Below the pieces are notes generated by a model. The model worked only from the letters and a program-made list of their open reading frames with translations. It did no database searches and was not told the DNA's origin. The position numbers and the translations under genes were made by a program. A DNA stretch of 46,236 nucleotides from a virus. The stretch lies in IMG/VR virus record IMGVR_UViG_3300005253_000040, positions 1-46,236 of that record; one strand, written 5' to 3'. This document shows, piece by piece, positions 1 to 46,236 of this stretch (positions within the stretch are counted from its first letter, which is position 1; the number at the start of each line of letters is the position of its first letter).

Positions 1-50
1 GATTTGAAGTGAAAACCATTCTTCAATCAATACTAGGAGAGCAGAAATGA
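1..50 (+). CDS. 3' end of small helical protein (wraps from 45908)
   Basis: This is the end of the gene that starts at 45908, carried over by the terminal repeat. The frame stops with TGA at 48-50, overlapping the ATG of the next gene at 47 as ATGA. It is not a separate gene. Confidence 0.8.
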   Translation, partial: FEVKTILQSILGEQK

Positions 51-121
51 CTTGTCCTTGTATTGGTTGTGCTGATGGTCTTGATGAAGTTTGTGCTGAA
101 TGTAGGTTTCTAAAAGATATA
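1..121. repeat. Direct terminal repeat, left copy
   Basis: These 121 bases are identical to bases 46116-46236. The reading frame of the gene at 45908 continues through the repeat and stops at 48-50 here, so the repeat joins the two ends into one coherent gene order. This is what a circular genome assembled as a linear contig looks like; a true short terminal redundancy is the alternative. Confidence 0.97.
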
Positions 122-1437: not shown

Positions 1438-3279
1438 TTGGCTGCCAAGAAAAAGACTGTATCTAAAAAAAAGTCAGTTGCTAAAAAATCAACTACCAAA
1501 CCATGGATTAAGACTCAGAAACGCAAGTCTACCATTGAGGAGATAGATCCCAAAGGACCTCACATTAACATCATGTCTCTGGGAGAGGCCAAAGAACTAG
1601 AGTTTGATTATTTCCCAAATCTGAATTCCGCCAACCTTTCAGGAACTAGAAAAACTATGATAAACAGTCTGAAGGATGGAACCTATCAGCCAAACATGGC
1701 AACAGTTCCCTACACTGCTGAAGTAGAAAAGAAAAACAATTATCTCATCAAAGCAGAACCTTCCAATGATGATTTTCTTACAACTGACAAAGACAGATTT
1801 GAATTCTCTGGTGAAGTGTATCAAAAACAGAGAGAGCAAACTTACACTAGACTTGAGACTTTACTGAAACAATACAGACGTTCTAACATTCCACTACTCC
1901 CCAGATATTATCACAACCCACTTCAATACTATGACCACATTTTACTTGCAGATGGATATGTCAACTCATTCCAGGGAACAGTAATTGATGCTTATGGTGA
2001 TTTTATTATGCCAAAGACTCTCAAACCTGTACTCCGATTACGTAATCCAAAGAAGCATGGAGACTCTCAAGCACAACAAAAACTAATTGAGGATAATCAA
2101 AACATTATTGATGATTTAATCCAAGTTGATGACTGGTACTCTGACATGGGACCAAAGGAAATTGACCCATACATGGACATGCCACTACAACTTAAATTCA
2201 AAGCACTAATCATTCAGCATCTTACATTTGGTAGAGATGCAATTGTGTATGAGCACTGGGATCATCTCCCACATGTTACAGTTAATGGCAAAGAGTACAA
2301 AGACATTCCAAATGCACTGAAATTGGTTCATCCAATCGACATGGGAATGATAGAGCTAGACGAGTACACTTGGAAACTTGGTGGCATGTACATCTACAAC
2401 CAACCTGCATTCATTCCATCTCAGGACATGTTGTATCTTGTTAACCGTTATGCTTCTCCATTGATTGGTTCATTCTACTATGGATTTGCAGTAGGACAGC
2501 GCTCTATAGATCCTGTCAGAGTGTATAGAAGAATACTTGCACAAAACTATCAACAGTTCATTAGAAGTTCTCATAGTGGTATGGGAGCATTCATCTTTGA
2601 TTCCACAGGATATAATGAGGAAGTAAGAAAGAAAATCAGAACCACAATTATCAATTCCTACAAGGCAGGTGAAGTTGCAGTAATTGATTATGCAAACATC
2701 AAGGACTTTGACTTTAAGGAGATGAAGATTAATGCAAACATAGAAGGTTTAGTAAAAGTACAGGAAGCAATGGTGAAAATAATGATTGGTATTACTGGAA
2801 TGCCACAGAGCCTCATCTATGGAGAAGGAGATGCAAATAGAAGTACAATGGTCGGAAGAATTGTTTCATTCATCAATAATCAGGTTGCAGGACTTCGGAC
2901 ATCCATTGGTCAACAAATTGCATCCCAACATTACATGCCAAACTTTAGAATTCTCTACAAAGACAAGCAAGAATTAGAGATGTTCTACATAGATGTAGAG
3001 TTTGAGGAAGCAGAATTAGAAACTAGAGCAGAGAAAGTTGAGAGACTATTAGCAGAAATAGAACTATTCCCATACAAACCAGAGCACATTGGAGAAGAAC
3101 TTGGCGATAAGGACTACATGGCTAACATTGATGAAGATGCAATCAAACAAAAGAAGGAAATGCAAGAACAAGGTCCACAAGACAAAGGTCCATTTGGTCA
3201 ATCTAAACCATCAGCTAAAGGAGTCTTTACTGTCAAAGGTCCTGGAGGAGAAACCGCCAAAGTAACACAGCGTAACTGA
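1438..3279 (+). CDS. Portal protein
   Basis: The portal forms the dodecameric ring at one capsid vertex through which DNA is packaged and ejected and to which the neck attaches. This 613-residue protein fits by length and by position, immediately before a MuF-like protein and a protease. A Lys-rich start (AAKKKTVSKKK) precedes the body. Around residues 450-500 a segment of the type GMPQSLIYGEGDANRST, followed by FINNQVAGLRTSIGQQI, resembles the portal stem and crown region where a Gly/Pro loop precedes long helices. The C-terminus is Pro/Gly/Lys-rich and probably disordered. The start codon is TTG. The assignment rests on pattern and synteny, not on a search. Confidence 0.82.
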   Translation: MAAKKKTVSKKKSVAKKSTTKPWIKTQKRKSTIEEIDPKGPHINIMSLGEAKELEFDYFPNLNSANLSGTRKTMINSLKDGTYQPNMATVPYTAEVEKKNNYLIKAEPSNDDFLTTDKDRFEFSGEVYQKQREQTYTRLETLLKQYRRSNIPLLPRYYHNPLQYYDHILLADGYVNSFQGTVIDAYGDFIMPKTLKPVLRLRNPKKHGDSQAQQKLIEDNQNIIDDLIQVDDWYSDMGPKEIDPYMDMPLQLKFKALIIQHLTFGRDAIVYEHWDHLPHVTVNGKEYKDIPNALKLVHPIDMGMIELDEYTWKLGGMYIYNQPAFIPSQDMLYLVNRYASPLIGSFYYGFAVGQRSIDPVRVYRRILAQNYQQFIRSSHSGMGAFIFDSTGYNEEVRKKIRTTIINSYKAGEVAVIDYANIKDFDFKEMKINANIEGLVKVQEAMVKIMIGITGMPQSLIYGEGDANRSTMVGRIVSFINNQVAGLRTSIGQQIASQHYMPNFRILYKDKQELEMFYIDVEFEEAELETRAEKVERLLAEIELFPYKPEHIGEELGDKDYMANIDEDAIKQKKEMQEQGPQDKGPFGQSKPSAKGVFTVKGPGGETAKVTQRN

Positions 3280-5637: not shown

Positions 5638-5834
5638 TCCATCTTTCCTTGATGAGATTTTGATCTAAGAGGAGTGGTACAACATGAACAGATACTCAGA
5701 GTAGTAAATAAAAATAGACAACATACAGAGCAATACTTGTATCCATCTGCATAGGCATTTCTATTGTGAGTGGTTTCAACAGTCTCACAGATTCCTAAAC
5801 AACCTCTACCCAAAATTCTTCCCCATAATCTCAT
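5634..5834 (-). CDS. Thaumarchaeal-type GYKxC zinc-ribbon protein
   Basis: Contains GYKYCSVCC followed by CSCCTTPLRSK. This is the arrangement GYKxCxxC...CxCCxxxLR, which I know from many short thaumarchaeal proteins. A second member is at 39489-39671. The frame overlaps the upstream gene by 29 bases if the ATG at 5834 is used; a TTG about seven codons later would shorten the overlap. The role is unknown; such ribbons may bind nucleic acid or transcription factors. Confidence 0.68.
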   Translation of the reverse strand: MRLWGRILGRGCLGICETVETTHNRNAYADGYKYCSVCCLFLFTTLSICSCCTTPLRSKSHQGKME

Positions 5835-6177
5835 AAACTTCTGGAATTGAATAGCAAAATCCTATGTGCATACAACTGTTTGAATCACACAACATACATT
5901 TCAACTTTGGTTTTATTATAATCTCTGCAACTCGGTTTTTGATATTGTCTTTGAGAAGGACTCTATCATAATTGACAGTTAATTTTTGTAACCAAGGGCG
6001 GTATTTTATTGCAATATTCTGATTCTTTAATTGTAATTCCAAGCAATGAGTTACATATCCTGAGAAACTATTGACTCCAATTGTCTGTAACTCTTTTTGG
6101 TTTGCTTCGTAAACTGCAAAGAGTCTATTGTACACATTTTCTGTTACTGTGATAGACTTGAATCCAGCTTTGGGCAT
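5806..6177 (-). CDS. RHH transcription regulator with C-terminal zinc site
   Basis: Residues 4-50 (GFKSITVTENVYNRLF...GVNSFSGYVTHCL) match the ribbon-helix-helix pattern: one beta strand that inserts in the DNA major groove and two helices that dimerise. The C-terminus holds C94, C97, C102 and H104 followed by SIPEVYEIM, an arrangement I associate with thaumarchaeal RHH proteins. It is therefore a likely viral repressor or host-type regulator. It sits in the small-gene operon, overlapping the next gene by one base. It is a candidate for binding the GTGCCC operator, but nothing shows that directly. Confidence 0.78.
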   Translation of the reverse strand: MPKAGFKSITVTENVYNRLFAVYEANQKELQTIGVNSFSGYVTHCLELQLKNQNIAIKYRPWLQKLTVNYDRVLLKDNIKNRVAEIIIKPKLKCMLCDSNSCMHIGFCYSIPEVYEIMGKNFG

Positions 6178-9175: not shown

Positions 9176-10456
9176 ATGTCTGGCCAAACTTATACCTTCT
9201 TGCCAAAAATAGGTGCAGTCTATACTGGTAACATCGAAGATGAAGAGATTGGATTCCAAAATGAATATCTTGCATCCTTTGACCCAGTTGAAAAACAAGT
9301 AGAATTCAAAGCAGGAAACAAAATTGATGCTGAGTATCTACAAGCAGCATTGGATGGAGTTAACAAAACATATTACAAATTAACTGACATTAAACCAGAA
9401 CTAAGTGCACAAAGAAAAATTGAACTTAAAGTAAAGAACCTCAAGAGAAAAAATAGATGCAGATATGACGGTTCTCTTAATAGAGAAATGTCCCAACTCT
9501 ACCAAGAGTATCAAGCAGTTGTCAATGGTGATAACACCAATCAATTAACTATCGTTCAATTTGTAAATGAAATTGTTGGCAAACTAGAACAACCATCTTT
9601 CATTACTACAGCATTCAGACACATTGGTTTAGATAAATTACGAGGAAAGATTCCAGAAATGGGATGGCCAGCAGTTAACATCCAAGTTCAGAGACTATCT
9701 GAACCAGAGATTAACTACACAGAATATGGTCAGAATGAATTTAGAATCTTCAGAAATGATGTACACACCTATTCTAGCCGAGAAGACCGACTAGAAGCAA
9801 CCATTGATCCTTTCACTACCTCAATTGCTCAAGGTCAAATCCAGATGCAAAGAGCAAGAGAACTCTTGGCACTCAAGGAATCTTCAAATCTCATTAAAGA
9901 TGCAGTATTTGGTGACTTGCCAGACTTTACTGCAACTGGTACTGAAGGAGTACCACATGCAACCAACGATGCACCAAAAGAGTTTGTAAACGTCTATCTT
10001 GGTCACTTTAACAAATTCTTTAACTATATTAAATATTGGATTTTCAACCCATTAGATTACAGAGATTATCTATCCAACTGGTTCTCATTCGCATATGCAC
10101 AACAGAATGCACCAAAAGGATTTGGAGTAGTACCATTCAAAGGAATGGAAGAATATGGCGGTGTTGCAATTATCAGTCCTTATGTACCACGCAAGTTTGT
10201 CTACGCTCTCACTAACGAAGGAGCCTATGAACTAGACGGACCTTATGTAGTGGATTCAGAATATGATGCTAAGAAATTTGCAGACTATAACATTATTCAC
10301 GACTTCATTGGCTATCTAATCATGAACCCAAAGAGATTTGGTGAGAAACTTCTCATTGCTGGCGGAACTCCAGGAACCGAGATTACCACCAACAAACAGG
10401 TCTATGACCTGCTCAAGCCACCTACCGACCTCGTAGAGAAGAACGCTACCGCTTAG
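9176..10456 (+). CDS. Major capsid protein, HK97-type (putative)
   Basis: This 426-residue protein would form the capsid shell. Residues 1-118 are charged and partly helical (KPELSAQRKIELKVKNLKRK), like the delta domain that acts as internal scaffold and is cut off. The motif DNTNQLTIVQFV at 119-130 repeats that of the putative protease. After it come segments expected of the fold: a long helix rich in LLALKESSNLIKDAVFG (spine helix) and a C-terminal beta-rich part with GVAIISPYVPRKFVYALTNEGAYE. Position after scaffold and size fit the role. The fold itself needs structure prediction. Confidence 0.8.
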   Translation: MSGQTYTFLPKIGAVYTGNIEDEEIGFQNEYLASFDPVEKQVEFKAGNKIDAEYLQAALDGVNKTYYKLTDIKPELSAQRKIELKVKNLKRKNRCRYDGSLNREMSQLYQEYQAVVNGDNTNQLTIVQFVNEIVGKLEQPSFITTAFRHIGLDKLRGKIPEMGWPAVNIQVQRLSEPEINYTEYGQNEFRIFRNDVHTYSSREDRLEATIDPFTTSIAQGQIQMQRARELLALKESSNLIKDAVFGDLPDFTATGTEGVPHATNDAPKEFVNVYLGHFNKFFNYIKYWIFNPLDYRDYLSNWFSFAYAQQNAPKGFGVVPFKGMEEYGGVAIISPYVPRKFVYALTNEGAYELDGPYVVDSEYDAKKFADYNIIHDFIGYLIMNPKRFGEKLLIAGGTPGTEITTNKQVYDLLKPPTDLVEKNATA

Positions 10457-14362: not shown

Positions 14363-14833
14363 ATGTCTTCTGTCCAACAAGCAATAGATGATATTATCCA
14401 ATTAGAACCACAAACCAAACAATACATCCAAGAGAACTTGGAGGATTTGATGGAAGAGTACGTAGTGAGTGAGATAAAGTCAGTATCTAGAGCCATGAAT
14501 CTTCCTCAACATTTTATCGATGGAGTCAAGGCTGTCAAAGTGGGACCATTACACATCAAGATAATCAATACATGGGGAACCCCACAGGTTCCTTTGGCAA
14601 AATTCTTCAATGATGGAACCAACGACCATTTTATTGCACCGCTAGGAGACTGGCTTCTTCACTGGATAACTCCACTAGGAAGAGATGCTTGGTCTAGAGG
14701 GCACATGGTCAGGGGCATCCAAAAGACAGAGGCTATGGAGATCGGAATCAGACTTGGAATGAAAAAATTTCAAACAGCAGTCTTAAAAAACACCAAAGAG
14801 AATGTAAGTAAGGAGTTGGAATCAGTTGAGTAG
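14363..14833 (+). CDS. HK97 gp10-like neck/tail-completion protein
   Basis: 156 residues with a helical N-terminal half (YIQENLEDLMEEYVVSEIKSVSR). Then come PLAKFFNDGTNDHFI and GRDAWSRGHMVRGIQKTEAMEIGIRLGMKKFQ. The middle pattern (ly..GT..h.I, then G.....v.gi..t) is common in HK97 gp10-type proteins that join head and tail. Ends overlapping the next TTG. Confidence 0.62.
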   Translation: MSSVQQAIDDIIQLEPQTKQYIQENLEDLMEEYVVSEIKSVSRAMNLPQHFIDGVKAVKVGPLHIKIINTWGTPQVPLAKFFNDGTNDHFIAPLGDWLLHWITPLGRDAWSRGHMVRGIQKTEAMEIGIRLGMKKFQTAVLKNTKENVSKELESVE

Positions 14834-15984: not shown

Positions 15985-18864
15985 ATGTCCTTAGATCCCC
16001 TTCCATACAAAGTTGAAAATATTGTAGGTGCTGCTAAAGACATTACCCAATATGTTGTGCAGATAGACTCCTGCAAATTCCAAGGAAGCGGAAAGATACG
16101 CAGTGCCAGTGTGATGTTTAAGGCTACAGATGGCGCATTCATCACAAACAAAGATTTTCAAGGAACTGATAACACACCAATCTTCAATCAGTTTGATCCG
16201 ATACAAATAACATGGATTGACGATAATTCTAATTTCAAAGCTCTGATAGTTGAAGTAGATCAAGAGTTTGGACAGAAGGATCCAAATGGAATATTGCTTC
16301 CTCTAGAATTCAAGGGAAGAGAGGCTGCACTCCAAAGAAGAAAAACTACTGCATTCTACCAGTTCAAGACACCAAATTTTGTAATTAATGATCTTGTTCT
16401 GCGGTACAACGCTGACCGTGGAACCGATGAACCAGAAATTTTTACAACTCTGCTAGGTGCAAATACAAACCAAGCACCCGACAATATTGTTAACATCTAT
16501 GATTTTACCAGAGAAATCACTTACTATGATGCAATAATGCTGGTCATCACTAGACTGAATCAACCCATAGGTACTGGCGGTGCAGGAGACTTCTTTACAC
16601 TCTTCTTTGATGACAGAGACATTCTTGATCCACCCAACACAGGATTGATATTATTTATCCACATCCAAGGTGGCCTTGGCACTGATACCATACAATCTAC
16701 ACCAAACGACCCTCTCCATTCCCTAACATATCAGATACATTCCGAAAGTGGAAACCAAGTATTTGTCAGAGGCCAAGAGGGAACAGGTTACATGCCAGTT
16801 GAATTCCATGAATTTATTTCATTTGTTGAAGAGATTAACAACTATCCATTCTACAATACAGCAGTAACCTATCTTTCAGGAATGTTTGTACGTGGAGATG
16901 ATGGAAATATCTACAAAGCAAACACTGCTGTTCCAGTATCTACTCCACCACCTAATGTATCATTTTGGGATTTGGAAACTCCATCATCAATAATTCCATC
17001 CAGTAATTATTCACCATTCACCAACAACCAAGCTGTAGTAACTAAGAACAGTTGTGGAAACGCAACCACAGTATTTGCAAATGGAACATTCAACGCACCA
17101 ACATTCCCAGATGGCAACATGGTTATTCGAGAAGGATTCAACTCTGCCGATGGTAGTTTCTCTTTCTTTAGAGACTTTGCTATGGCCAGAACCAATGACT
17201 CTGCAACCATTCCAAACTTTTACTTTGACTTTGCAGGAGTAGACGGGTTCTACAACGGACTCAGAATATTGGTTGACTTGACTCTTGGTGCAGCAGGAGG
17301 AGCCTTTGTTGGAACCGACAAGTTCGGAAGAACTTTTGGCAATGCCCTTGTAATATTTGATGGTTTTGAATGGATAGTAATAAGAGAATTCAACATATCT
17401 ACTGACAACCAGATTGGAGATCAAGTTGTAGTGCTAGAAGAGGGACTAACCTACGAGTGGAACGTCCCTATACAAGATCAGAATGACTTTGCAAATGCCC
17501 ACACTCATGCAGGCTTTACACGAAAATTCCGTGGCACTGGTGCATTCTCAACTGCACAGTGGAGAGATGTATCTGATACAGCAGGTGGTAATGATGTATT
17601 CCATCATCCAAAAAATATTGAAGTTACTACAGGACTGTTTCCTGATGATATCAATGGTGATGACTATTCCAGTTTTGTCACAAACTCTGCAATCAAGATA
17701 ACATTTGAGTACACAATAGGAGATGAGATTAACAAGTTCCTCTGTAAGTTCACATCCTTCTTTGACAACATATACAACCGACTCATTGATTTATCGCAGG
17801 ATACATCCGATATCTTCCAAACTTTGTTTGAGCCAACAACTGCAGCAGTAAATGAAACAAAAGTTGCTGAATACTATGACTTTGGTTGGTGGTACATGCT
17901 GCCTTTCCCCTATCCCTTCACTAAACAAAATAGTAGTCCTGTAAGTGTAGGAGACTTGTATGGTGCAGCCCCTGGTCTGAACCAGAAAGAACAGTTTGCA
18001 GTGTTGGATTTGCAAAATGCAAACTACTCCCACAGTGGATTGGTGGGACTCAATCATACAGAAGTGGAAGACATGGGAGCACCATTTACAGGAATTCATT
18101 TCTACTTTAATTTTGACATACAAGTCGGTGGCGGTTCCCAACCATTTACAGGAGATTTAGAATTTATTGTAACAGCATATGATGACTTGAGCCAAGTATG
18201 GAGAACAACATTCACTTACCGACTTCTGAGAGATACGCAAGAGATTAACATCCCATTTAGTACATTCACTGTAGACAGACCAAGCAGAACTCCATGGGGA
18301 CTCAGGACTGCACTACAAAACATTGTCATACCAGAGATTGAAATTCGTTCCATCTTTGAGCCAAAGCGTGTAAGATTCATCACATTTCAATTAGCACAAT
18401 CATACGATAGCGACCTAAGATTTTTAGCTGTCAACCTTGACAATCTCATCTCTCTTGGATATGGTTTAGGAGTAGTAACATTTGTTGGAATCATTGATGC
18501 ACTAACTCTTACAAAACAACCATTCACTTCTAGCGGAGTAATCACCACCAGAATAATCAATCCTGATACCATCCAACAGAACAATGTAAGGAATCTTAGA
18601 CAACTGCGTTCCGTTGCTGTTGCTGCAAAAGACTTGGGAGGATTACAATTTGAAGAATATACAGTAGTCCAGAAGGGAAGAAGCGACCTGACTACAGAGC
18701 AGACCATTATACTTGACGATATTGATATGATAAAGTTTGCAGATGTTGGTGCTCACACCAGAAAATTAATACTAATGGAAGAGGATCTATCATTCAATGC
18801 AAATGGAACAAAGAGTGGTTTTATTTCCACCGAAGTTCTCATCAGGAGGTTGAACCCTGCATAG
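15985..18864 (+). CDS. Tail hub / baseplate protein
   Basis: 959 residues. The first 160 residues (VVQIDSCKFQGSGKIRSASV..., PIQITWIDDN, FKALIVEVDQEF, LPLEFKGREAALQRR) look like the hub fold of gp27/Tal-type proteins that cap the tail tube. A long middle and C-terminal part is beta-rich with many Phe/Tyr/Asn residues, suited to carbohydrate- or surface-binding domains. It is the largest protein in the genome and directly precedes the fibre gene, which fits a central tip protein to which fibres attach. No enzymatic motif was noticed. Confidence 0.7.
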   Translation: MSLDPLPYKVENIVGAAKDITQYVVQIDSCKFQGSGKIRSASVMFKATDGAFITNKDFQGTDNTPIFNQFDPIQITWIDDNSNFKALIVEVDQEFGQKDPNGILLPLEFKGREAALQRRKTTAFYQFKTPNFVINDLVLRYNADRGTDEPEIFTTLLGANTNQAPDNIVNIYDFTREITYYDAIMLVITRLNQPIGTGGAGDFFTLFFDDRDILDPPNTGLILFIHIQGGLGTDTIQSTPNDPLHSLTYQIHSESGNQVFVRGQEGTGYMPVEFHEFISFVEEINNYPFYNTAVTYLSGMFVRGDDGNIYKANTAVPVSTPPPNVSFWDLETPSSIIPSSNYSPFTNNQAVVTKNSCGNATTVFANGTFNAPTFPDGNMVIREGFNSADGSFSFFRDFAMARTNDSATIPNFYFDFAGVDGFYNGLRILVDLTLGAAGGAFVGTDKFGRTFGNALVIFDGFEWIVIREFNISTDNQIGDQVVVLEEGLTYEWNVPIQDQNDFANAHTHAGFTRKFRGTGAFSTAQWRDVSDTAGGNDVFHHPKNIEVTTGLFPDDINGDDYSSFVTNSAIKITFEYTIGDEINKFLCKFTSFFDNIYNRLIDLSQDTSDIFQTLFEPTTAAVNETKVAEYYDFGWWYMLPFPYPFTKQNSSPVSVGDLYGAAPGLNQKEQFAVLDLQNANYSHSGLVGLNHTEVEDMGAPFTGIHFYFNFDIQVGGGSQPFTGDLEFIVTAYDDLSQVWRTTFTYRLLRDTQEINIPFSTFTVDRPSRTPWGLRTALQNIVIPEIEIRSIFEPKRVRFITFQLAQSYDSDLRFLAVNLDNLISLGYGLGVVTFVGIIDALTLTKQPFTSSGVITTRIINPDTIQQNNVRNLRQLRSVAVAAKDLGGLQFEEYTVVQKGRSDLTTEQTIILDDIDMIKFADVGAHTRKLILMEEDLSFNANGTKSGFISTEVLIRRLNPA

Positions 18865-25157: not shown

Positions 25158-25595
25158 TTATTCAATAGAATCTGGAATTATTCCAGCAGTCTCTAACGCA
25201 TCAATAATATCTCTATAATCATCCCATGTAACAATATGCTCTTTCTTTGAGTTGAGCCAGAACAAACCTCTCTCTCTACAGTCCCAGTCGTTAACTTCCA
25301 AGTATTGATATCCTGCTTTTACTACTAATGGAATAATTACACGTCTGAGCTTGGCTGCAATCTTTTCTTTGTGCTTGTAATTAATTTCAATGACTGTATT
25401 TTTTCCCAAACTTTTACTATGGGGATACAGAACCAAATCAAAGTTGTGGTTTTTTATTTCCTGATCTAGCACTTCATAGTCTTCTGCAAGTATAATTTCT
25501 TTGATGTTTACTTGTTGTCTGTTCGAAATTCCATAGAAGAGTCTGTTGAAAATATCCAAGGAACGAATCTCACCACGTCCTATAAAATTACTCAT
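25158..25595 (-). CDS. PD-(D/E)XK nuclease-like protein
   Basis: 145 residues from the ATG that overlaps the HNH gene's TGA. FDLVLYPHS (D53) followed by TVIEINYKHKEK (E70, N72, K74) and KLRRVIIPLVVKAGYQYLEVND resembles the core of restriction-endonuclease-like folds, with Glu-x-Asn in place of Glu-x-Lys. A later CRERGLFWLN could complete the site. It may be a nuclease for viral DNA processing or host DNA breakdown, or an inactive relative. It ends the minus operon starting at 27716. Confidence 0.55.
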   Translation of the reverse strand: MSNFIGRGEIRSLDIFNRLFYGISNRQQVNIKEIILAEDYEVLDQEIKNHNFDLVLYPHSKSLGKNTVIEINYKHKEKIAAKLRRVIIPLVVKAGYQYLEVNDWDCRERGLFWLNSKKEHIVTWDDYRDIIDALETAGIIPDSIE

Positions 25596-26038
25596 ATTTG
25601 TGGCACTATTCCTTTCGATCGTCTTAATTTTGTTTGATATTCTCTGCATCTAACTCTACTACATTCAACACATCTTCTTTCATCTTTCCACACATAGAGA
25701 TTATCACCAGATAATTCATGACCTTGGGGACAATGTGTTTTTCTGGAATTGATGGCAGAGAAACTAGTTCCTCTTAAAATATTTTCTTTTAGTGTTATTT
25801 GTTCTAAATGTAATGGATTACAACAGGCTCTGTTTCTACAGAGATGATCTATTGTCAAGTCAGGACAGATGGAACCGTAATAGTATTCATAGATGAATCG
25901 ATGTGGTGGTTGAAGTTTCCCTTCATAAGTAAATCTCCCATAACCTCTATCATTTGTTCCTCCTGTCCATTTCCAACAACCATTATCTAACACTTCAATC
26001 TTCTTGAGAAATCGTCCAATGTATTTTGATTCACTCAT
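25592..26038 (-). CDS. HNH endonuclease (homing type)
   Basis: 148 residues from the ATG at 26038, which overlaps the previous stop. The core is IDHLCRNRACCNPLHLEQ, with D64/H65 as the first catalytic pair and N74/H77 completing the ββα-metal fold. N-terminal CWKWTGGTNDRGYGRF is a common lead-in of phage HNH enzymes. A C-terminal zinc-binding part THCPQGHEL...RRCVECSRVRCREYQ follows. Such free-standing HNH proteins act as mobile nicking/cutting enzymes that favour their own spread. It sits inside an operon of zinc proteins. Confidence 0.88.
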   Translation of the reverse strand: MSESKYIGRFLKKIEVLDNGCWKWTGGTNDRGYGRFTYEGKLQPPHRFIYEYYYGSICPDLTIDHLCRNRACCNPLHLEQITLKENILRGTSFSAINSRKTHCPQGHELSGDNLYVWKDERRCVECSRVRCREYQTKLRRSKGIVPQI

Positions 26039-26157
26039 TGAATATCTTCTCCACCACAAAAAACACAGAAATTAATTGGTTCATCTATGTCTTTGTCAGA
26101 TTGAATACTAAACCCAATATTACATTTGAAACAACAATAATCCCAATCGTCACTCAT
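26035..26157 (-). CDS. 40-residue zinc-ribbon protein
   Basis: Pattern CCFKC then CVFCGGED about 20 residues later, a minimal zinc ribbon. Both ends overlap neighbours as ATGA. Function unknown. Confidence 0.68.
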   Translation of the reverse strand: MSDDWDYCCFKCNIGFSIQSDKDIDEPINFCVFCGGEDIQ

Positions 26158-26905: not shown

Positions 26906-27193
26906 CTACAACCTACTTGCTTTCTTGAATCCTGCTCCATAGAATTTGGCAGTCTCTGGAAGTTTTTTAAATCCACAGTTAAAGCAGATGTTATTCACTG
27001 AATCAAAAGTTTTTCTCTCCTGAAGTCTATGGCTCTTTGTTCTATGTTGTGTGCATCCCCTAGGGCATTTGATTAATCTCTTTTTAGTTTGAAGATTAGT
27101 TGGAAATTTGACTTTAACTGATGTAACTCTTTGATCCTTTCTAGTAGAGGATTTTATTCTACTATCATAGTCTGATTTTCTGAAAAGACTCAT
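26906..27193 (-). CDS. Basic zinc-binding protein (95 aa)
   Basis: A strongly basic N-terminal half (RKSDYDSRIKSSTRKDQRVTSVKVKF) is followed by CPRGCTQHRTKSH and CFNCGF: a zinc site with two Cys pairs. Directly downstream of the mini-PCNA gene with a four-base overlap, so the two are co-translated; a partner role at DNA is possible but unproven. Confidence 0.7.
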   Translation of the reverse strand: MSLFRKSDYDSRIKSSTRKDQRVTSVKVKFPTNLQTKKRLIKCPRGCTQHRTKSHRLQERKTFDSVNNICFNCGFKKLPETAKFYGAGFKKASRL

Positions 27194-27489
27194 TTCACTG
27201 CAGGAGCAAGATAGTATTTTATTGTGCAGACATCAGTGACAAATGAAAGTATGATTGGTGCTCTCTCAAAATATTCAACAAAGATGTTCTTCTCAATGTA
27301 TGGTTTTAGTGATTTCAATACTGGTTCCATGAATGTAAAGTTGAAACCAATTCCTTCAGTGTGAGATGGATCCAATACAGCACACTCAATCCCTTCCTTC
27401 TTGACATGGAATACTGCTTCCTCTACTATTGGAATTAGTCCTGCTGTAACTGCTTTCCAGTTTTTAGCTTTAGTAGTTACTGTGAGCAT
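27190..27489 (-). CDS. Miniature PCNA-like sliding-clamp protein
   Basis: Full archaeal PCNA has about 245 residues in two similar domains. This protein has 99. Residues 10-50 follow the N-terminal PCNA pattern: WKAVTAGLIPIVEEAVFHV, then EGIECAVLDPSHTEGIGF with the invariant DPSH. Residues 68-97 follow the extreme C-terminus of the second domain: NIFVEYFERAPIILSF, then IKYYLAPAV, matching the usual yyLAPrvE end. The end of domain 1, the interdomain loop that binds partner proteins and the start of domain 2 are absent. It may form a one-domain ring, join host PCNA, or block it. It overlaps both neighbours, so it is expressed with them; the operon is under a GTGCCC operator. Confidence 0.78.
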   Translation of the reverse strand: MLTVTTKAKNWKAVTAGLIPIVEEAVFHVKKEGIECAVLDPSHTEGIGFNFTFMEPVLKSLKPYIEKNIFVEYFERAPIILSFVTDVCTIKYYLAPAVK

Positions 27490-27716
27490 ATCTTTAATTT
27501 TCCTACTTCACTTTCTATTTTACTGTTAATATGAGAATATAATTTTGATTTTAATTCCTCAAACTCTTCCTCAGATACTAGATGGCGTGCTGGTGTATCA
27601 TCTCTACTATTGATTTCATCTGCAATTTCTTTAATGGTATCTCGAAGTGCTTCTAATTTTTGCTCAACATCTAAATCTAACCAAGGTGTATTCCAAAGTT
27701 TGTTGGGTTCTATCAT
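27477..27716 (-). CDS. 79-residue acidic coiled protein
   Basis: Helical and acidic (LDLDVEQKLEALRDTIKEIADEINSRDD, then EEFEELKSKLYSHINSKIESEVGKL). First gene of the minus operon and overlapping the mini-PCNA start by 13 bases. It could be a partner of that protein. No domain is recognised. Confidence 0.66.
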   Translation of the reverse strand: MIEPNKLWNTPWLDLDVEQKLEALRDTIKEIADEINSRDDTPARHLVSEEEFEELKSKLYSHINSKIESEVGKLKICSQ

Positions 27717-27769: not shown

Positions 27770-27980
27770 CTCTGACACCATGCTTAATCAACGTAGATTT
27801 GTATGATTATAGATTATTTCCATGATTTTTCTAGGCGTAAATTATCTATGTACAGTATATTATACCCTGACACCTTTATTACCAGCGTATTTTTTTTAAA
27901 ATTTATTTTTCTGAAGAAAATAGAAAATAATTATAATAAAATTTGTAAACTAACGACGAGATGAAACGATAGTGTCAGGG
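27770..27980. other. Candidate replication origin with CCTGACAC repeats
   Basis: CTCTGACACC (27770-27779), CCCTGACACC (27865-27874) and the reverse complement GTGTCAGGG (27972-27980) flank a very AT-rich stretch (about 27889-27948) containing runs of T and A. Inverted binding sites around an easily melted core, at a point where transcription diverges, are typical of origins. No initiator gene is next to it. Confidence 0.5.
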
Positions 27981-27988
27981 TTAAATAA
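27981..27988 (+). promoter_or_regulatory. TATA box for 28009
   Basis: TTAAATAA lies 20 bases before the GTG at 28009, immediately after the inverted repeat arm GTGTCAGGG, suggesting a leaderless message. Confidence 0.55.
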
Positions 27989-30430: not shown

Positions 30431-30486
30431 TATTTAAATTAGTGCCCTATGGGAACTTTTAATTACTCAATGTGCCCATTACTTAC
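30431..30486. promoter_or_regulatory. Divergent promoter with operator
   Basis: TATTTAAAT (30431-30439) is followed by GTGCCCTATGGGAAC (30442-30456) and, on the other side, by an opposite-facing TATA-like AATTAAAAG (minus strand, about 30456-30464). A second half-site GTGCCCATT is at 30472-30480. Serves the AbrB-like/methyltransferase operon (minus) and the OB-fold gene (plus). Confidence 0.75.
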
Positions 30487-30487
30487 C

Positions 30488-31036
30488 ATGGGAGATTTCA
30501 TGAGTCTTGCCGATGCAAGACAAGCTATGAAAGGTAGTTTTGTTGCAACAGTTATTGCAGTTGGAGATCTAAAATCTGGAACCAAAGACAATAAGGATTG
30601 GAGTTACAAAAAATTAACCCTAGAAGATGTATCTGCCAAAATTACATTAACAGTGTGGGGTGGCGAAATCAAATTATTTGAATATGGTAAAACTTACGAA
30701 TTTCACACACCTTGGTTTACTAATTATGAAGGTGAGGCAGTGTTGGCATTGGGCAAATATTGTCAAGTGAAGTTGGTAGAAAACCCAGAGGTTTCACATA
30801 CACCATCAGCACCAGAATCTACACCAGAACCATCAACTGATACTCCAAAAATTCCATTAGACCAAAAACTAGTCCATGATGAAATATGGGCATTTGCTAT
30901 ATCAGAAGCAACCAAAGTCTATCCATTAGGTACTGCTGGTGCAGATCCAAATCTAACAGGTAGATTGATTCTAGCACAAGTATTCTACAAAAAGAATATG
31001 GATTACTACATTCATAGAGAGGGAAGAGCAGGATGA
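30488..31036 (+). CDS. OB-fold ssDNA-binding protein (SSB/RPA-like)
   Basis: 182 residues if it starts at ATG 30488. Starts at 30470 and 30500 are also possible; the one at 30449 lies inside the operator. Residues 10-95 have the RPA-type OB pattern: KGSFVATVIAVGDLKSGTKDNK, WSYKKLTLEDVSAKITLTVWGGEI, YGKTYEFHTPWFTNYEGEAVLALG. A Pro/Ser/Thr linker follows, then a C-terminal helical domain. It likely coats single-stranded DNA in replication or recombination. It is the clearest replication protein in the genome besides the PCNA-like gene. Confidence 0.78.
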   Translation: MGDFMSLADARQAMKGSFVATVIAVGDLKSGTKDNKDWSYKKLTLEDVSAKITLTVWGGEIKLFEYGKTYEFHTPWFTNYEGEAVLALGKYCQVKLVENPEVSHTPSAPESTPEPSTDTPKIPLDQKLVHDEIWAFAISEATKVYPLGTAGADPNLTGRLILAQVFYKKNMDYYIHREGRAG

Positions 31037-31725: not shown

Positions 31726-31863
31726 ATGTCAGATGAAGTTCTGGTTGTTGAACTTACTACCATAGACAGTGAATGCATTCTACAAGATCAATTCAAAATC
31801 AGAAAGAAAGACGAGGTATTCTTACGCAAGATTTTAGTAATGCTAGAGAGTAACTGTGGTTGA
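31726..31863 (+). CDS. 45-residue protein upstream of the metalloprotease
   Basis: MSDEVLVVELTTIDSECILQDQF then basic helix KIRKKDEVFLRKILVMLES. Ends two bases before the ATG at 31865 (or overlaps the GTG at 31856), so it is translationally linked to the metalloprotease gene. A TATA-like TTTAATTC lies about 25 bases upstream. Confidence 0.6.
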   Translation: MSDEVLVVELTTIDSECILQDQFKIRKKDEVFLRKILVMLESNCG

Positions 31864-31864
31864 T

Positions 31865-32527
31865 ATGCAAATAGTTTGTGCAATGGTACATAAGCCAGAA
31901 ATTGATGCGATTACAACAGAATACATCCTTGAAAAACAAAGGGGCACATGGAATAAGAACACTATCAAGTGGTGGGTAACAAATCATCACAAGGAAGAAA
32001 TTTTTGAGCAATCCAGGGAAGTGTTTCTAAGAAAGATATTCAACTTGGCATTTACCGAAGTAGACATTGAGATTCCAATTATTTTCATTCAAGCAGAGTC
32101 AGAAGATGAAGCAGACATTGTAATAGATTTCACACCAAGAGCAGAAGCAAAACACCATTCTACTAATCCCAGAGTTCTAGCATATGCAGGCTATCCTGAC
32201 GGCGTGCTCAAAGGAATCATGGTTATTTTTACAGACTGGGATTGGAACGTAACTGGAAACCTCAACATTATCTCTGTAATAATTCACGAACTACTTCATC
32301 TACTTGGACGTCCACATTCAGAAAGGGGTCTGTGGTTGGATATGATGGATCCTGCAATCAATTCCAAAATCAGAGAACTGTCTGATTGGGATGTTCTAGG
32401 ATTGGTAACTGCATATGGAGCTAGGGTGTATAGTTCTGATACAGGACATGACAGATTAGAAAAAGCTAACCGACATGGAAAAGAGAGACTAGCATTACAA
32501 GGTTTGACACCATTTGCTAAAGAGTAA
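31865..32527 (+). CDS. Matrixin-type zinc metalloprotease
   Basis: 220 residues from ATG 31865 (GTG 31856 possible). The zinc site HELLHLLGRPH (residues 141-151) is the metzincin consensus HExxHxxGxxH with catalytic E142 and three His ligands. A Met-turn LDMMDP follows at 159-163, as in family M10 (matrixins). The domain before it has the expected strands (DIVIDFTPRAEAKHH, KGIMVIFTDWDWN). No signal peptide or propeptide is seen. Thaumarchaeal cells are covered by a protein S-layer, so a peptidase could open the envelope at exit or entry. It is followed 43 bases later by a two-helix membrane protein with its own TATA box. The link to lysis is inference. Confidence 0.88.
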   Translation: MQIVCAMVHKPEIDAITTEYILEKQRGTWNKNTIKWWVTNHHKEEIFEQSREVFLRKIFNLAFTEVDIEIPIIFIQAESEDEADIVIDFTPRAEAKHHSTNPRVLAYAGYPDGVLKGIMVIFTDWDWNVTGNLNIISVIIHELLHLLGRPHSERGLWLDMMDPAINSKIRELSDWDVLGLVTAYGARVYSSDTGHDRLEKANRHGKERLALQGLTPFAKE

Positions 32528-33936: not shown

Positions 33937-34974
33937 CTATGATGTATAATCAGTCAGCAAAATCCTACCATCAATTTCTTGAAGCATCATTGTCAACCTA
34001 TTCTTCTGAGACTGGGTTATCTCATTAGTTGTAAAAATGTAGTTGTCAAGTGTCTTTATAGAATTTTTCAGCCTGGGAACATCTGTCTTTGCTAGTATCT
34101 TCAGATTCTGTTTGAGCATTCCAAATCCCTCTTCAGTAGGATCTCGAGCTAAACGAGTCTCCCAATTCTTATGTGCAGGACAGGATGCACACCCCATCCT
34201 ATCAATATTGTGTACAGAATATGTTGGATTCTGAGGAATGATGTATCTATGAAAGTATTCCAACACATCAACTGCCTTCCAGAACGACAACGGAGTTACA
34301 GCTTGCATTGGATATGGACGTCTAGATTTAATCAGGTAGGAACGACATCTCTGTAGAACCCCCAGGCTACGTATCTGAGATTCCTGTGCTCTGGTTCCTA
34401 TGAAGTGACAGTCATATCTCTGATCTTTGGGGAGACTCTTGAGAAATGCGTTGATAGAGTCTTTTTTGAGTATCTTACAGCACTCAGGTATGTTACTTTC
34501 CTTGTAGGAACCTGTAACTTTTCTTGCAGTTCTGCGGAAATTAGGCAGGTGTCCAACCTTCTTTGCAACGGACCATACAGTGTACATGTGACCATTCTCA
34601 TCTTCAGGCGGATAGAATATTCTGAAACAGTTCTCAATATCGAGCCACTTGTTGAATGCATCCCAGTAGGCTTTCTCTTCTTTGTACACATTCAACGTAT
34701 GGTTCAACCACACGTCAATCATAGGTATATCTAACTCCTTACAGACTCTCCAAATCAAATGAACCAATACTATAGAATCCTTCCCATGACTAGAAGCAAC
34801 ATAACATTTAGTGTAATGTTCCAGATGACCTTTGATTAGTCTGATAGACTCTTCTTCCTTCTCTTCAAATGTACCTCTCATCTTGGCATGTAACTCATAA
34901 GGAAACAGCACAAAGGTCTTTGGCTTCTTCTCTGGTATCAGTCTCTTTTCAGGGAATATCCGTAGACTCATCAA
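33937..34974 (-). CDS. PAPS-reductase-family protein (PP-loop, iron-sulfur type)
   Basis: 345 residues. The PP-loop SSHGKDS (61-67) binds and adenylates or cleaves nucleotide substrates. GTRAQESQIRS (193-203) is the second family hallmark. C165/C166 together with C262/C265 make the CC...CxxC set that holds a 4Fe-4S cluster in APS reductases. Viral relatives are often suspected in DNA or RNA sulfur modification or other base modification (DndC belongs here) and may help evade restriction, rather than in sulfate assimilation. No other dnd genes are nearby. It lies at the end of a minus operon under a GTGCCC operator. Confidence 0.85.
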   Translation of the reverse strand: MMSLRIFPEKRLIPEKKPKTFVLFPYELHAKMRGTFEEKEEESIRLIKGHLEHYTKCYVASSHGKDSIVLVHLIWRVCKELDIPMIDVWLNHTLNVYKEEKAYWDAFNKWLDIENCFRIFYPPEDENGHMYTVWSVAKKVGHLPNFRRTARKVTGSYKESNIPECCKILKKDSINAFLKSLPKDQRYDCHFIGTRAQESQIRSLGVLQRCRSYLIKSRRPYPMQAVTPLSFWKAVDVLEYFHRYIIPQNPTYSVHNIDRMGCASCPAHKNWETRLARDPTEEGFGMLKQNLKILAKTDVPRLKNSIKTLDNYIFTTNEITQSQKNRLTMMLQEIDGRILLTDYTS

Positions 34975-38148: not shown

Positions 38149-38259
38149 TTGAATAATAAAGGTTGTAAAATATGTGGGAAGCCTGAGATGTATAGAACCC
38201 TCTTGGGTTGGTTTTGTCTTAGACATTGGGAAGCACTTCGTAGCAAGGAGAGTCATTGA
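38149..38259 (+). CDS. 36-residue zinc finger
   Basis: TTG start right after the previous stop. CKICGKPEMYRTLLGWFCLRHWE gives CxxC and C..H ligands. Overlaps the terminase ATPase start by four bases. Function unknown. Confidence 0.55.
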   Translation: MNNKGCKICGKPEMYRTLLGWFCLRHWEALRSKESH

Positions 38260-39308
38260 AAAACAATAACTTCCTGCAACAGAAATTTAAGGCCAACAAT
38301 GATCTCTTAGAGAAGAAACTAGCCAAGGCCATTGCTAGAATTGCATCTCTAACATCACTATATCTCCCACTGGATGTTCCATTCAACATCCAAAAGTTCT
38401 ACAATGAGCTTGGCAATCCATTCTTCAACTCGCTAACCAAGGAGCAGATTATCCTGCTAGCACCACTACAAATCAAGATATGGAATCTGCATATCAAGTT
38501 CAAACTATTACTAATTCTAAAGTCACAGAAGATTGGCATCTCATCGCTCTGCATTCTCATTACTCTATGGCATGCACTGACTGACTGCATGGGAATGGAA
38601 CTAATCATCCAAGCTCAGTCAGATGAGCAGGCAAAGTCACATGCACAGGATTTTAGAAGAATTTTGTCTGGCTCACCAAAGTACAAAGACTATCTCATAT
38701 CAAAAGAGTTCACACAGCTAGGACTGCTTAGGGATGAAGTTACAAAGGTGCATACAATCTATCTACACAATCCAAAGAACCCCCGTTTGCCAACCAAGAT
38801 AATTATTGTAGGAATGTCTCCAGGAGCATTGCTATCTCACAAGAGAGTTGGCTTCGTCTGGTCTTCAGACCTATCTATCTCTGGCCTTACATCTGAGAGA
38901 CAGAACCTAGTCTGGGCTGCAATGCTTTCACGTAGAGCCAATTCACAAGGTCCAGTAATTGTTGAATGTCCTGCAAGAGCACCAGCAGGTCCAGTGTATG
39001 ATACTTGGGAAAAGTACGAGCAGAAACTGATTGACAAAGTAAAGCTACGTCCTGACTATGACTTTTACTGCTTCAAGTTCAAGTATGATCTTGGAATCAG
39101 AGATGGATTCTTTGATGAGGAATTCATAGAGTCTGAGAAAGACAAGTACGGCGCATTGTTTGGAACATTCTATGAAGCAGACTTTTTTGCATCAGATACA
39201 GTGTGGTATGAAGAGGGACACTTTGCCAACAAAACTGATGAAGCAACTGATTTATTCTTAGAGTTCAATCCAGTAGATGATAGTGTTAGTAACTTGAAGG
39301 ATGATTAG
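38256..39308 (+). CDS. terL: Terminase large subunit, ATPase part (split)
   Basis: 350 residues that power DNA packaging by ATP hydrolysis. LLILKSQKIGIS (85-96) is the variant Walker A of terminases (K-S-R/Q-x-G-I-S). Residues 184-209 (IVGMSPGALLSHKRVGFVWSSDLSIS) match the stretch leading to Walker B, but the usual Asp-Glu pair reads Asp-Leu (D205). VIVECPARAPAGPVYDTWEKY (234-254) matches coupling motif III. The protein ends soon after the ATPase domain, with no nuclease domain; that domain is encoded separately at 40296. Starts with TTG. Confidence 0.85.
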   Translation: MKNNNFLQQKFKANNDLLEKKLAKAIARIASLTSLYLPLDVPFNIQKFYNELGNPFFNSLTKEQIILLAPLQIKIWNLHIKFKLLLILKSQKIGISSLCILITLWHALTDCMGMELIIQAQSDEQAKSHAQDFRRILSGSPKYKDYLISKEFTQLGLLRDEVTKVHTIYLHNPKNPRLPTKIIIVGMSPGALLSHKRVGFVWSSDLSISGLTSERQNLVWAAMLSRRANSQGPVIVECPARAPAGPVYDTWEKYEQKLIDKVKLRPDYDFYCFKFKYDLGIRDGFFDEEFIESEKDKYGALFGTFYEADFFASDTVWYEEGHFANKTDEATDLFLEFNPVDDSVSNLKDD

Positions 39309-39489: not shown

Positions 39490-39671
39490 TGTTCAAGTGC
39501 AAAGCCATTTGTGAGTCTGAATCAGATTACCTACAGTCAAGCCACAGAGTAGGCAGGTTCTCCGCTAGCAACGGCTACAAGAAATGCACTCTATGTGGAA
39601 TCATCACCAACACAACTGACTTGAGATGTAGGTGCTGTGGAAGCAAGTTCAAGCTGAGGATACTAGCATGA
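39489..39671 (+). CDS. GYKxC zinc-ribbon protein (paralogue of 5634)
   Basis: 60 residues: CKAICESESDYLQSSHRVG, then NGYKKCTLCGIITN and LRCRCCGSKFKLR. The order GYKxCxxC...CxCCxxxL(R/K) equals that of the gene at 5634 and of short thaumarchaeal ribbon proteins. Lies inside the split terminase region. Confidence 0.68.
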   Translation: MFKCKAICESESDYLQSSHRVGRFSASNGYKKCTLCGIITNTTDLRCRCCGSKFKLRILA

Positions 39672-40303
39672 CAGAGCAAGGACTATTATGGAAAGAAGCA
39701 CCAGAATCACGTTTTGAATTGTACTGCACTTCACCTAATGGTTACTCTACTAGATGCAATATTCTTTTCAAAAAGTTAGAAGATTACAATAAACATAATG
39801 TTGAAGTTCATAAATATAAATTAAATATCAAAGAACTCCCACTTAGACCTAAACGTAGATTCCATACTACTCAGACAGAATTAGACAATAGGGAAAATGG
39901 ACTGTGTTGGTGTGGTAAGCCCAAAGATCAATGGAATAAAAACAAATATGGCAATCCTCAACGTAGAGGTTACTGTAGTGATGAACATTACAAAGATTGG
40001 TGGAAGAGAAATGATAATAACGCATTCCATAGAAGAAAATTTCTTAGACAATCTCCAAGAATCTGTAATGAATGTGGTGCCAAGACAAACTACAGAGAGA
40101 TGGATCACATCATTGCAATTGTATTAGGTGGACATCCTTGGGATTATAGAAACTTGCAATCTCTCTGTGAGGCATGTCACAAGAAAAAAACAGTGTTTGA
40201 TATAAAAATTCTAGCTTGGTGGAAGAGAGACTCTAATTATGATACTGGTTCTATAATACCAAATAACCAACACAGTCTGGAGGAATATGTAACCATTGAC
40301 TGA
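39668..40303 (+). CDS. HNH endonuclease between terminase halves
   Basis: 211 residues from the ATG overlapping the previous stop. The HNH core is RICNECGAKTNYREMDHIIAI...RNLQSLCEACHKKK: Cys pairs 133/136 and 167/170, catalytic D146/H147, N162 and H171. Two further Cys/His groups lie before it (C20...H48; CWCGKP...YCSDEHYKDWW). Homing endonucleases often interrupt or sit beside packaging genes. It overlaps the nuclease-half gene by eight bases. The gene may have split the terminase, or may use its intron-less position to spread. Confidence 0.85.
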   Translation: MTEQGLLWKEAPESRFELYCTSPNGYSTRCNILFKKLEDYNKHNVEVHKYKLNIKELPLRPKRRFHTTQTELDNRENGLCWCGKPKDQWNKNKYGNPQRRGYCSDEHYKDWWKRNDNNAFHRRKFLRQSPRICNECGAKTNYREMDHIIAIVLGGHPWDYRNLQSLCEACHKKKTVFDIKILAWWKRDSNYDTGSIIPNNQHSLEEYVTID

Positions 40304-41069
40304 AGGAAAAATCAATCAACCAAATCCAATTGCAGGATTCTTCCATGGAATAGATCCAGCAACAAAGGGAGACTACTATACTGATATTGTACAGGTACTG
40401 CCAGCTAAACCAAAACAAACTCTACTCCAACCTGGGCAGAAGTTCAAGTGGATTCCCTACATATGTCACATTATGAGATTAAAGAAGATGGATCCTGATG
40501 ATATCATTGACCAACAAATCAAAGTCTTCAACAGATTCCCCCCCCTTATTGCCAAGATAGATACCTCTAGAGAAGACTTTCTGACAAATGCACTGCAGAG
40601 AAAATATGGAGAGTCCAAAATAATGCCAGTAAAATTTCTAAACTCTGGTACTAGTAATACAAAGTTCCATCTCAAGCAAGTCGGTTACTCCTACATCAAT
40701 GCTGGTTATGAGTGGCCTAATGACCGTGTACTAGAGGAACGAGGTTATCTTAGATTTGCAAAACTGCTTCGCATTCTAAAGAAAGAGATGATGCACGAAT
40801 TAGTTACTTCGACAGACAGTGGCAGGATATCATTTGGACATCCTGCTGGAAAGCACAACGACTTGGTACATGGTTGGGAACTTTCCCTGGATGCTGTAAT
40901 GGAGTTCCAGCAAAAGAATCTGGGATATGAGAAACGCAAGAACGACCAGAAAGCATTTGATACCATACAGGATACAATGTATGACGATTACGATGATGTA
41001 GAGAAGAGAGCTATGGGGGATATATCAGAAATACCTTCAGGCAGTTCTGCTTTTCAGTTACCATACTAA
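40296..41069 (+). CDS. terL: Terminase large subunit, nuclease part (split)
   Basis: 257 residues forming the RNase H-like nuclease that cuts concatemers. GFFHGIDPATKGDYYTDIVQV (D20, with D30), PPLIAKIDTSRED (D89) and GKHNDLVHGWELSLDAV (D189) give the three conserved acidic positions in the right order. Starts with TTG overlapping the HNH gene. Together with the ATPase protein at 38256 it would make a complete terminase of about 600 residues; the two must associate or act separately. Ends in a charged tail. Confidence 0.85.
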   Translation: MTEGKINQPNPIAGFFHGIDPATKGDYYTDIVQVLPAKPKQTLLQPGQKFKWIPYICHIMRLKKMDPDDIIDQQIKVFNRFPPLIAKIDTSREDFLTNALQRKYGESKIMPVKFLNSGTSNTKFHLKQVGYSYINAGYEWPNDRVLEERGYLRFAKLLRILKKEMMHELVTSTDSGRISFGHPAGKHNDLVHGWELSLDAVMEFQQKNLGYEKRKNDQKAFDTIQDTMYDDYDDVEKRAMGDISEIPSGSSAFQLPY

Positions 41070-45915: not shown

Positions 45916-46165
45916 AAGAATCAAACTAACAGAAGATGATAAGAAATTGATAGAACATTTTTGGTATGATCACAACAAAGAATTAACTCAATATGGATAT
46001 CATGATTCTATTTCAAAACTAGTACATAATATGAAACAAATCCTAGAGAATCAAGAGATAGTAGAGAGATTGAAAGAGAAGTTTGAAACTCTACAATGGA
46101 GTGAAACTTTTCAAGGATTTGAAGTGAAAACCATTCTTCAATCAATACTAGGAGAGCAGAAATGA
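45908..46165 (+). CDS. 85-residue helical protein crossing the join
   Basis: TEDDKKLIEHFWYDHNKELTQYGYHDSISKLVHNMKQILENQEIVERLKEKFETLQ is helical and charged. Ends at TGA 46163-46165, equal to 48-50 at the left end, overlapping the next ATG. Unassigned. Confidence 0.72.
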   Translation: MTERIKLTEDDKKLIEHFWYDHNKELTQYGYHDSISKLVHNMKQILENQEIVERLKEKFETLQWSETFQGFEVKTILQSILGEQK

Positions 46166-46236
46166 CTTGTCCTTGTATTGGTTGTGCTGATGGTCTTGAT
46201 GAAGTTTGTGCTGAATGTAGGTTTCTAAAAGATATA
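46116..46236. repeat. Direct terminal repeat, right copy
   Basis: Identical to bases 1-121. See the left copy; the two should be counted once in a circular map of about 46,115 bp. Confidence 0.97.
46162..46236 (+). CDS. 5' part of the 33-residue zinc protein (duplicate of 47)
   Basis: The first 25 codons of the gene complete at 47-148, repeated by the terminal redundancy and cut off by the window end. Confidence 0.6.
   Translation, partial: MTCPCIGCADGLDEVCAECRFLKDI

Follow-up and report, generated by a model that had tools for sequence, protein, structure and literature searches.

Sliding clamps form rings of six repeated domains, in two- or three-subunit arrangements, and are thought to derive from a one-domain building block; no living representative of the clamp stage before domain duplication is known to us. 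In PCNA, the C-terminal strand of domain 2 pairs with strand D of domain 1, strand D closes the ring, ring contacts form in the D/E region and helix A faces the DNA. Viruses of ammonia-oxidising-type archaea are poorly known. Archaeal PCNAs (NF002221 and its relatives, including those of Nitrososphaerota hosts) span ~247–263 amino acids, and archaeal-type clamps are likewise encoded by archaeal viruses, including phiCh1, phiH, CGphi46 and three IMG/VR records (L099, L100 and L101). Those of these viral clamps that were measured have a query coverage of 80% or more, or span 247–254 amino acids. Thaspiviridae NSV1 also encodes PCNA (PMC8491892). TIP from Thermococcales, a 64-residue, PH-like protein not derived from PCNA (PMC4929162), is a proposed PCNA inhibitor reported to prevent trimer assembly (PMC4929162; PMC10506467), a precedent indicating that small proteins are able to disturb PCNA assembly, although it is unrelated to the protein described here. 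A TIP-like inhibitor would be expected to bind PCNA and block its interaction with PolB and Fen1. We found no single-domain, truncated or hexameric PCNA in open-access papers.

Here we describe a viral gene, mini-PCNA, from IMG/VR record IMGVR_UViG_3300005253_000040, analysed over its full 46,236 nucleotides (the window). Its product, MLTVTTKAKNWKAVTAGLIPIVEEAVFHVKKEGIECAVLDPSHTEGIGFNFTFMEPVLKSLKPYIEKNIFVEYFERAPIILSFVTDVCTIKYYLAPAVK, is homologous to archaeal PCNA over the first ~46 and last ~50 residues of the clamp and shares with it the motifs DPSH and YLAP, but comprises only 99 amino acids: the remainder of domain 1, the interdomain loop and the opening half of domain 2 are all absent. 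Features of the locus and of the surrounding genome are collected in Table 1.

Table 1. Coordinates of mini-PCNA, its parts, its neighbours and other features of the viral genome.
Feature	Position	Strand	Remarks
Direct terminal repeat	1..121	.	Identical to 46116-46236
Portal protein	1438..3279	(+)	Relatives in Nitrososphaerota proviruses (host evidence)
Putative tail protein	15985..18864	(+)	G250 provirus contig E=2.7e-92; sister virus (L103) 46%
Downstream 95-aa cysteine-containing ORF	26906..27193	(-)	ATGA overlap with mini-PCNA; related to 79-aa gene of sister virus
mini-PCNA ORF	27190..27489	(-)	99 aa, ATG start
Last quarter of PCNA (residues 49-98)	27196..27345	(-)	Helix B, three strands, end YYLAPAV; HMM 199-248, 15.5 bits as domain
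Junction (residues 46-50, GIGFN)	27340..27354	(-)	148 PCNA profile positions absent here
First quarter of PCNA (residues 5-46)	27352..27477	(-)	Helix A, strands B and C, including DPSH; HMM 9-50, 25.9 bits as domain
Upstream 79-aa ORF, same operon	27477..27716	(-)	Overlaps mini-PCNA start by 13 nt
OB-fold single-stranded DNA-binding protein (SSB)	30449..31036	(+)	NCBIfam NF005050 E=7.5e-8 (members scanned); PDB SSB matches E=4e-3

The NCBIfam archaeal clamp models matched mini-PCNA unprompted (NF002221, E=2e-9, in two stretches), and PCNAs ranked first in a sequence search of the PDB. Scores fell below the cut-offs for NF002221 (37.1 bits against a curated 239) and for Pfam PCNA_N (PF00705; 11.4 against 20.3 bits), and the Pfam model for the PCNA C-terminus gave no match. 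We built a profile from 80 fetched PCNA genes, almost all of them of Nitrososphaerota origin (loci L004–L083), with numbering about 2 ahead of that of a typical host PCNA. A thaumarchaeal and a Pyrococcus PCNA (alignments A1–A3) served as search bait only; our conclusions rest on database-fetched sequences. Identity to the host consensus was 30 of 96 aligned positions (about 31%).

Separate profiles were prepared for the four quarters of PCNA, with 2,000 composition-preserving shuffles for each half of mini-PCNA. The N half (residues 1–48) scored 34.1 bits against the N-terminal quarter of domain 1 and the C half (residues 44–99) 22.0 bits against the C-terminal quarter of domain 2, in both cases with none of the 2,000 shuffles scoring as high; the remaining six half-by-quarter pairings gave no match. 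A weak phmmer alignment placing the C half in the second half of domain 1 was overruled by these quarter profiles. Because the scores are specific to the quarters and unequalled by any shuffle, we read mini-PCNA as the two outer ends of PCNA joined together, and neither as a chance resemblance nor as a truncated domain 1. A first, sequence-only reading of this DNA had proposed a 99-residue PCNA of just this kind, which the 80-gene profile and the quarter tests bear out; its matches at both ends stand, although the C-terminal one starts at about residue 49 rather than at 68.

What is absent is profile positions 51–198, interdomain connecting loop included (the earlier estimate of about 150 missing residues was close to the count of 148), so that mini-PCNA is without the usual two-domain architecture of ~240–260 amino acids; its two pieces meet at residues 46–49. 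The missing middle was not found elsewhere in the whole record (best chance match E=0.12), which contains one clamp locus; this rules out a split gene, a frameshift or an intron hiding it. The frame is open throughout, and the frameshift that the earlier reading had named as a possible undoing of its proposal was looked for and is not there.

Another way to arrive at such a gene would be an assembly artefact, a false join having shortened a normal viral PCNA gene, and the record is indeed metagenome-derived. It is also, apparently, the terminally redundant, complete genome of a tailed virus. An assembly deletion is unlikely because the genome is apparently closed and the neighbouring genes overlap mini-PCNA; it would need an in-frame join leaving no trace, within one continuous ORF and with no leftover middle. 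Among all the explanations considered here, we hold this to be much the least probable.

No close relative of mini-PCNA was found in the viral contigs, phage records and GTDB genomes searched, and none in provirus contigs. A protein search of 300 genomes of the phylum returned four matches; each lies in a frame of 253 amino acids or more, and none is a mini form. In a profile search of 398 of its genomes, 380 gave a clamp match; among the best matches, the ones listed, there were frames of full length and frames interrupted by a contig end, and no mini form. The search for homologues in other virus genomes, suggested at the outset, likewise produced no second mini-PCNA: the three IMG/VR records carry full-length archaeal-type PCNAs of 247–254 amino acids, 23–29% identical to a Nitrososphaerota query. 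The layout is unseen in any other genome searched, a sequence finding that is solid and unusual and concerns a single gene, and the initial remark that no described clamp has such a layout held in the databases searched.

Genes for the virus particle point to the host. Portal matches were found in two Nitrososphaerota genomes (E=1.1e-39 and 8.9e-27), on contigs that also match capsid-region and tail genes. Judged by these proteins, the virus is related to Nitrososphaerota proviruses and its hosts are ammonia-oxidising-type archaea, in agreement with the thaumarchaeal-type virus first suggested. A 123-amino-acid protein (5806–6177) shares 51% identity with an ORF of the Nitrososphaerota contig G179:C22 (locus L097:837-1193); that contig, which also has a broken portal gene, is a probable decayed provirus.

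A sister virus, IMGVR_UViG_3300022707_003995, is complete at 45,414 bp, with a 144-bp terminal repeat, and shares 62% identity in the protein encoded at 9176–10456 (the probable major capsid protein), 49% in the portal and 46% in the tail protein. No PCNA was detectable in it by protein, profile or ORF search, whereas the same profile, as a positive control, detected the clamp in three viral records that are unrelated and encode a PCNA of full length. The sister virus keeps the neighbour gene of mini-PCNA starting MSxFxKSDY, with a different small ORF upstream. Because no PCNA could be detected in this closest complete relative, mini-PCNA is an accessory gene, dispensable in the lineage, and was either gained in its own lineage or lost in the sister virus.

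Such a distribution would suit a relic, that is, a captured PCNA that underwent an in-frame deletion and now yields a non-functional or vestigial peptide. The single occurrence, the modest identity to hosts, the low-confidence fold described below and the deletion of essential strands and the loop all lean this way. On the other hand, the frame is fully open, key motifs are recognisable in both halves, codon usage is ordinary (rank 36 of 64), genes on both sides overlap translationally and useless genes tend to drop out of small viral genomes. We consider the relic doubtful, though the most probable of the alternatives to the reading that we prefer.

The SSB is the sole other replication protein recognised in the virus, which also encodes a DNA methylase; no polymerase, helicase or clamp loader was recognised among its genes. 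Because of this combination, the virus probably depends on the host replisome. With a probability of roughly 0.4, we favour mini-PCNA as a clamp-derived accessory protein acting on the host clamp machinery, ahead of both the relic and a stand-alone six-copy ring. As its anatomy shows, the gene descends from an archaeal PCNA in which an uninterrupted run of 148 positions was deleted without a shift of frame, and the front half of domain 1 now runs straight into the back half of domain 2. The product is about one clamp domain in size and keeps, interdomain loop aside, most of the residues assigned to the groove. The roles offered by the sequence-only reading, namely a single-domain clamp subunit, a partner of host PCNA or a decoy, are candidates. 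Since the retained pieces flank the junction between the PCNA domains and form its two sides, they may present a ready-made strand-pairing surface. An early viral protein of this kind could pair with host PCNA, or hold PIP-box clients in its partial groove, and so redirect or dampen host replication to the advantage of the virus. We would not expect it to work as a clamp by itself, since neither a polymerase nor a clamp loader was recognised alongside the viral SSB. A parallel with TIP is possible and would be functional only, by analogy and with no homology claimed.

An accessory role of this sort is in keeping with the two-ended, quarter-specific homology, the intact overlapping ORF, its typical codon usage, the presence of a clamp across the host phylum and the portal, capsid and tail proteins common to thaumarchaeal proviruses. 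Against it are the single known sequence, the low confidence of the fold, the loss of the loop and of two groove residues and the absence of PCNA from the sister virus. The groove that holds PIP-box partners is assigned from human PCNA. Among positions at least 95% conserved in hosts, mini-PCNA keeps six of eight that line the groove, compared with 16 of 42 others (Fisher p=0.12, not significant), so preferential retention of the groove is suggestive only. We take the kept residues to be, in human numbering, H44, P234, Y250, L251, A252 and P253, with DPSH and YLAP as the motifs preserved, and the losses to be V45 (replaced by T) and L47 (by G); the comparison also shows a change from M to L, and the loop covering the groove is absent. 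A PIP-box motif scan of the other viral proteins gave one weak match, QVPLAKFF, in a structural-region gene (14363–14833).

AlphaFold2 gave a mean pLDDT of 38.9 for mini-PCNA as a single sequence; with 40 host fragments as alignment, the pLDDT was 49.1 and the pTM 0.36, figures that are partly circular, the alignment itself being PCNA. The alignment-based model has a helix at residues 8–18, strands at 24–30 and 33–39, a second helix at 51–61 and strands at 65–72, 79–85 and 89–94. This predicted order, a-b-b followed by a-b-b-b, corresponds to two clamp half-repeats in which the first strand is not formed and D/E are missing or merged. The monomer prediction called for by the sequence-only reading thus yielded an arrangement compatible with one clamp domain minus a strand, but not a confident fold. 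The top PDB matches of this low-confidence model in Foldseek were PCNA fragments (E ~7e-3, TM 0.39, the input alignment being PCNA), the best of them split yeast PCNA (3l0x and 3l0w), which are fragments engineered from a normal PCNA and functional only when combined with a partner piece.

Length and predicted helix and strand order would both fit a single-domain clamp subunit, about six copies of which might ring DNA head to tail and serve the virus as a processivity clamp, offering partners at most six partial grooves. Both of the ends that are kept belong to the interdomain junction of native PCNA, which subunit contacts could therefore reuse. Helix A, predicted to lie on the inside, has a charge of +3 and is thus more basic than its host counterparts (mostly -1). 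Yet the join leaves only about seven residues, with no strand predicted there, in place of strands D and E; the loop needed by most clients is gone, pLDDT is low, no viral polymerase was recognised and the PDB sequence matches listed include no natural single-domain clamp (shortest chain 244 amino acids). We regard such a subunit as unlikely, less probable than the relic, and its stricter version, a natural subunit of fused outer PCNA halves forming a ring of about six in which every contact reuses the interdomain junction, as less likely still.

The basic helix A would equally suit a clamp-derived DNA-binding or adaptor protein that no longer has a part in the clamp system, such as a small dimer that binds DNA, and change of use is common in viral proteins. 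In such a protein one would not expect the PIP-groove residues (DPSH, P and YLAP) to have been kept; we place it below both forms of the single-domain ring and call it improbable.

Were the single-domain ring true, no smaller clamp protomer would be known, and mini-PCNA would have gone back to the ancestral one-domain building block; a folded one-domain clamp would make clamp ancestry testable in the test tube. If, as in the reading we prefer, mini-PCNA poisons or redirects host PCNA, it would represent a new route of replication takeover for an archaeal virus with ammonia-oxidising-type archaea as hosts.

Several further features of the genome deserve record. Upstream of the mini-PCNA operon, an AT-rich divergent intergenic region contains an inverted repeat, TATTATACCCTGACAC / GTGTCAGGGTTAAATA, at 27858–27873 and 27972–27987, with a further copy of CTGACACC at 27772; this is a possible operator or origin. 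Two adjacent, well-conserved genes (38256–39308 and 40296–41069; 64% and 60% identity to the sister virus) look, by position and motif and with no database match, like the putative two halves of a large terminase. Between them lie small ORFs and a gene for an HNH endonuclease (39632–40303), and in the sister virus the split falls at the same point. Another HNH endonuclease gene (25592–26059) has three separate homologues in the sister virus, at 44–48% identity, which suggests a mobile homing-type gene. This tailed archaeal virus also encodes a Matrixin-type metalloprotease (31856–32527) and a PAPS-reductase-family protein (33937–34974).
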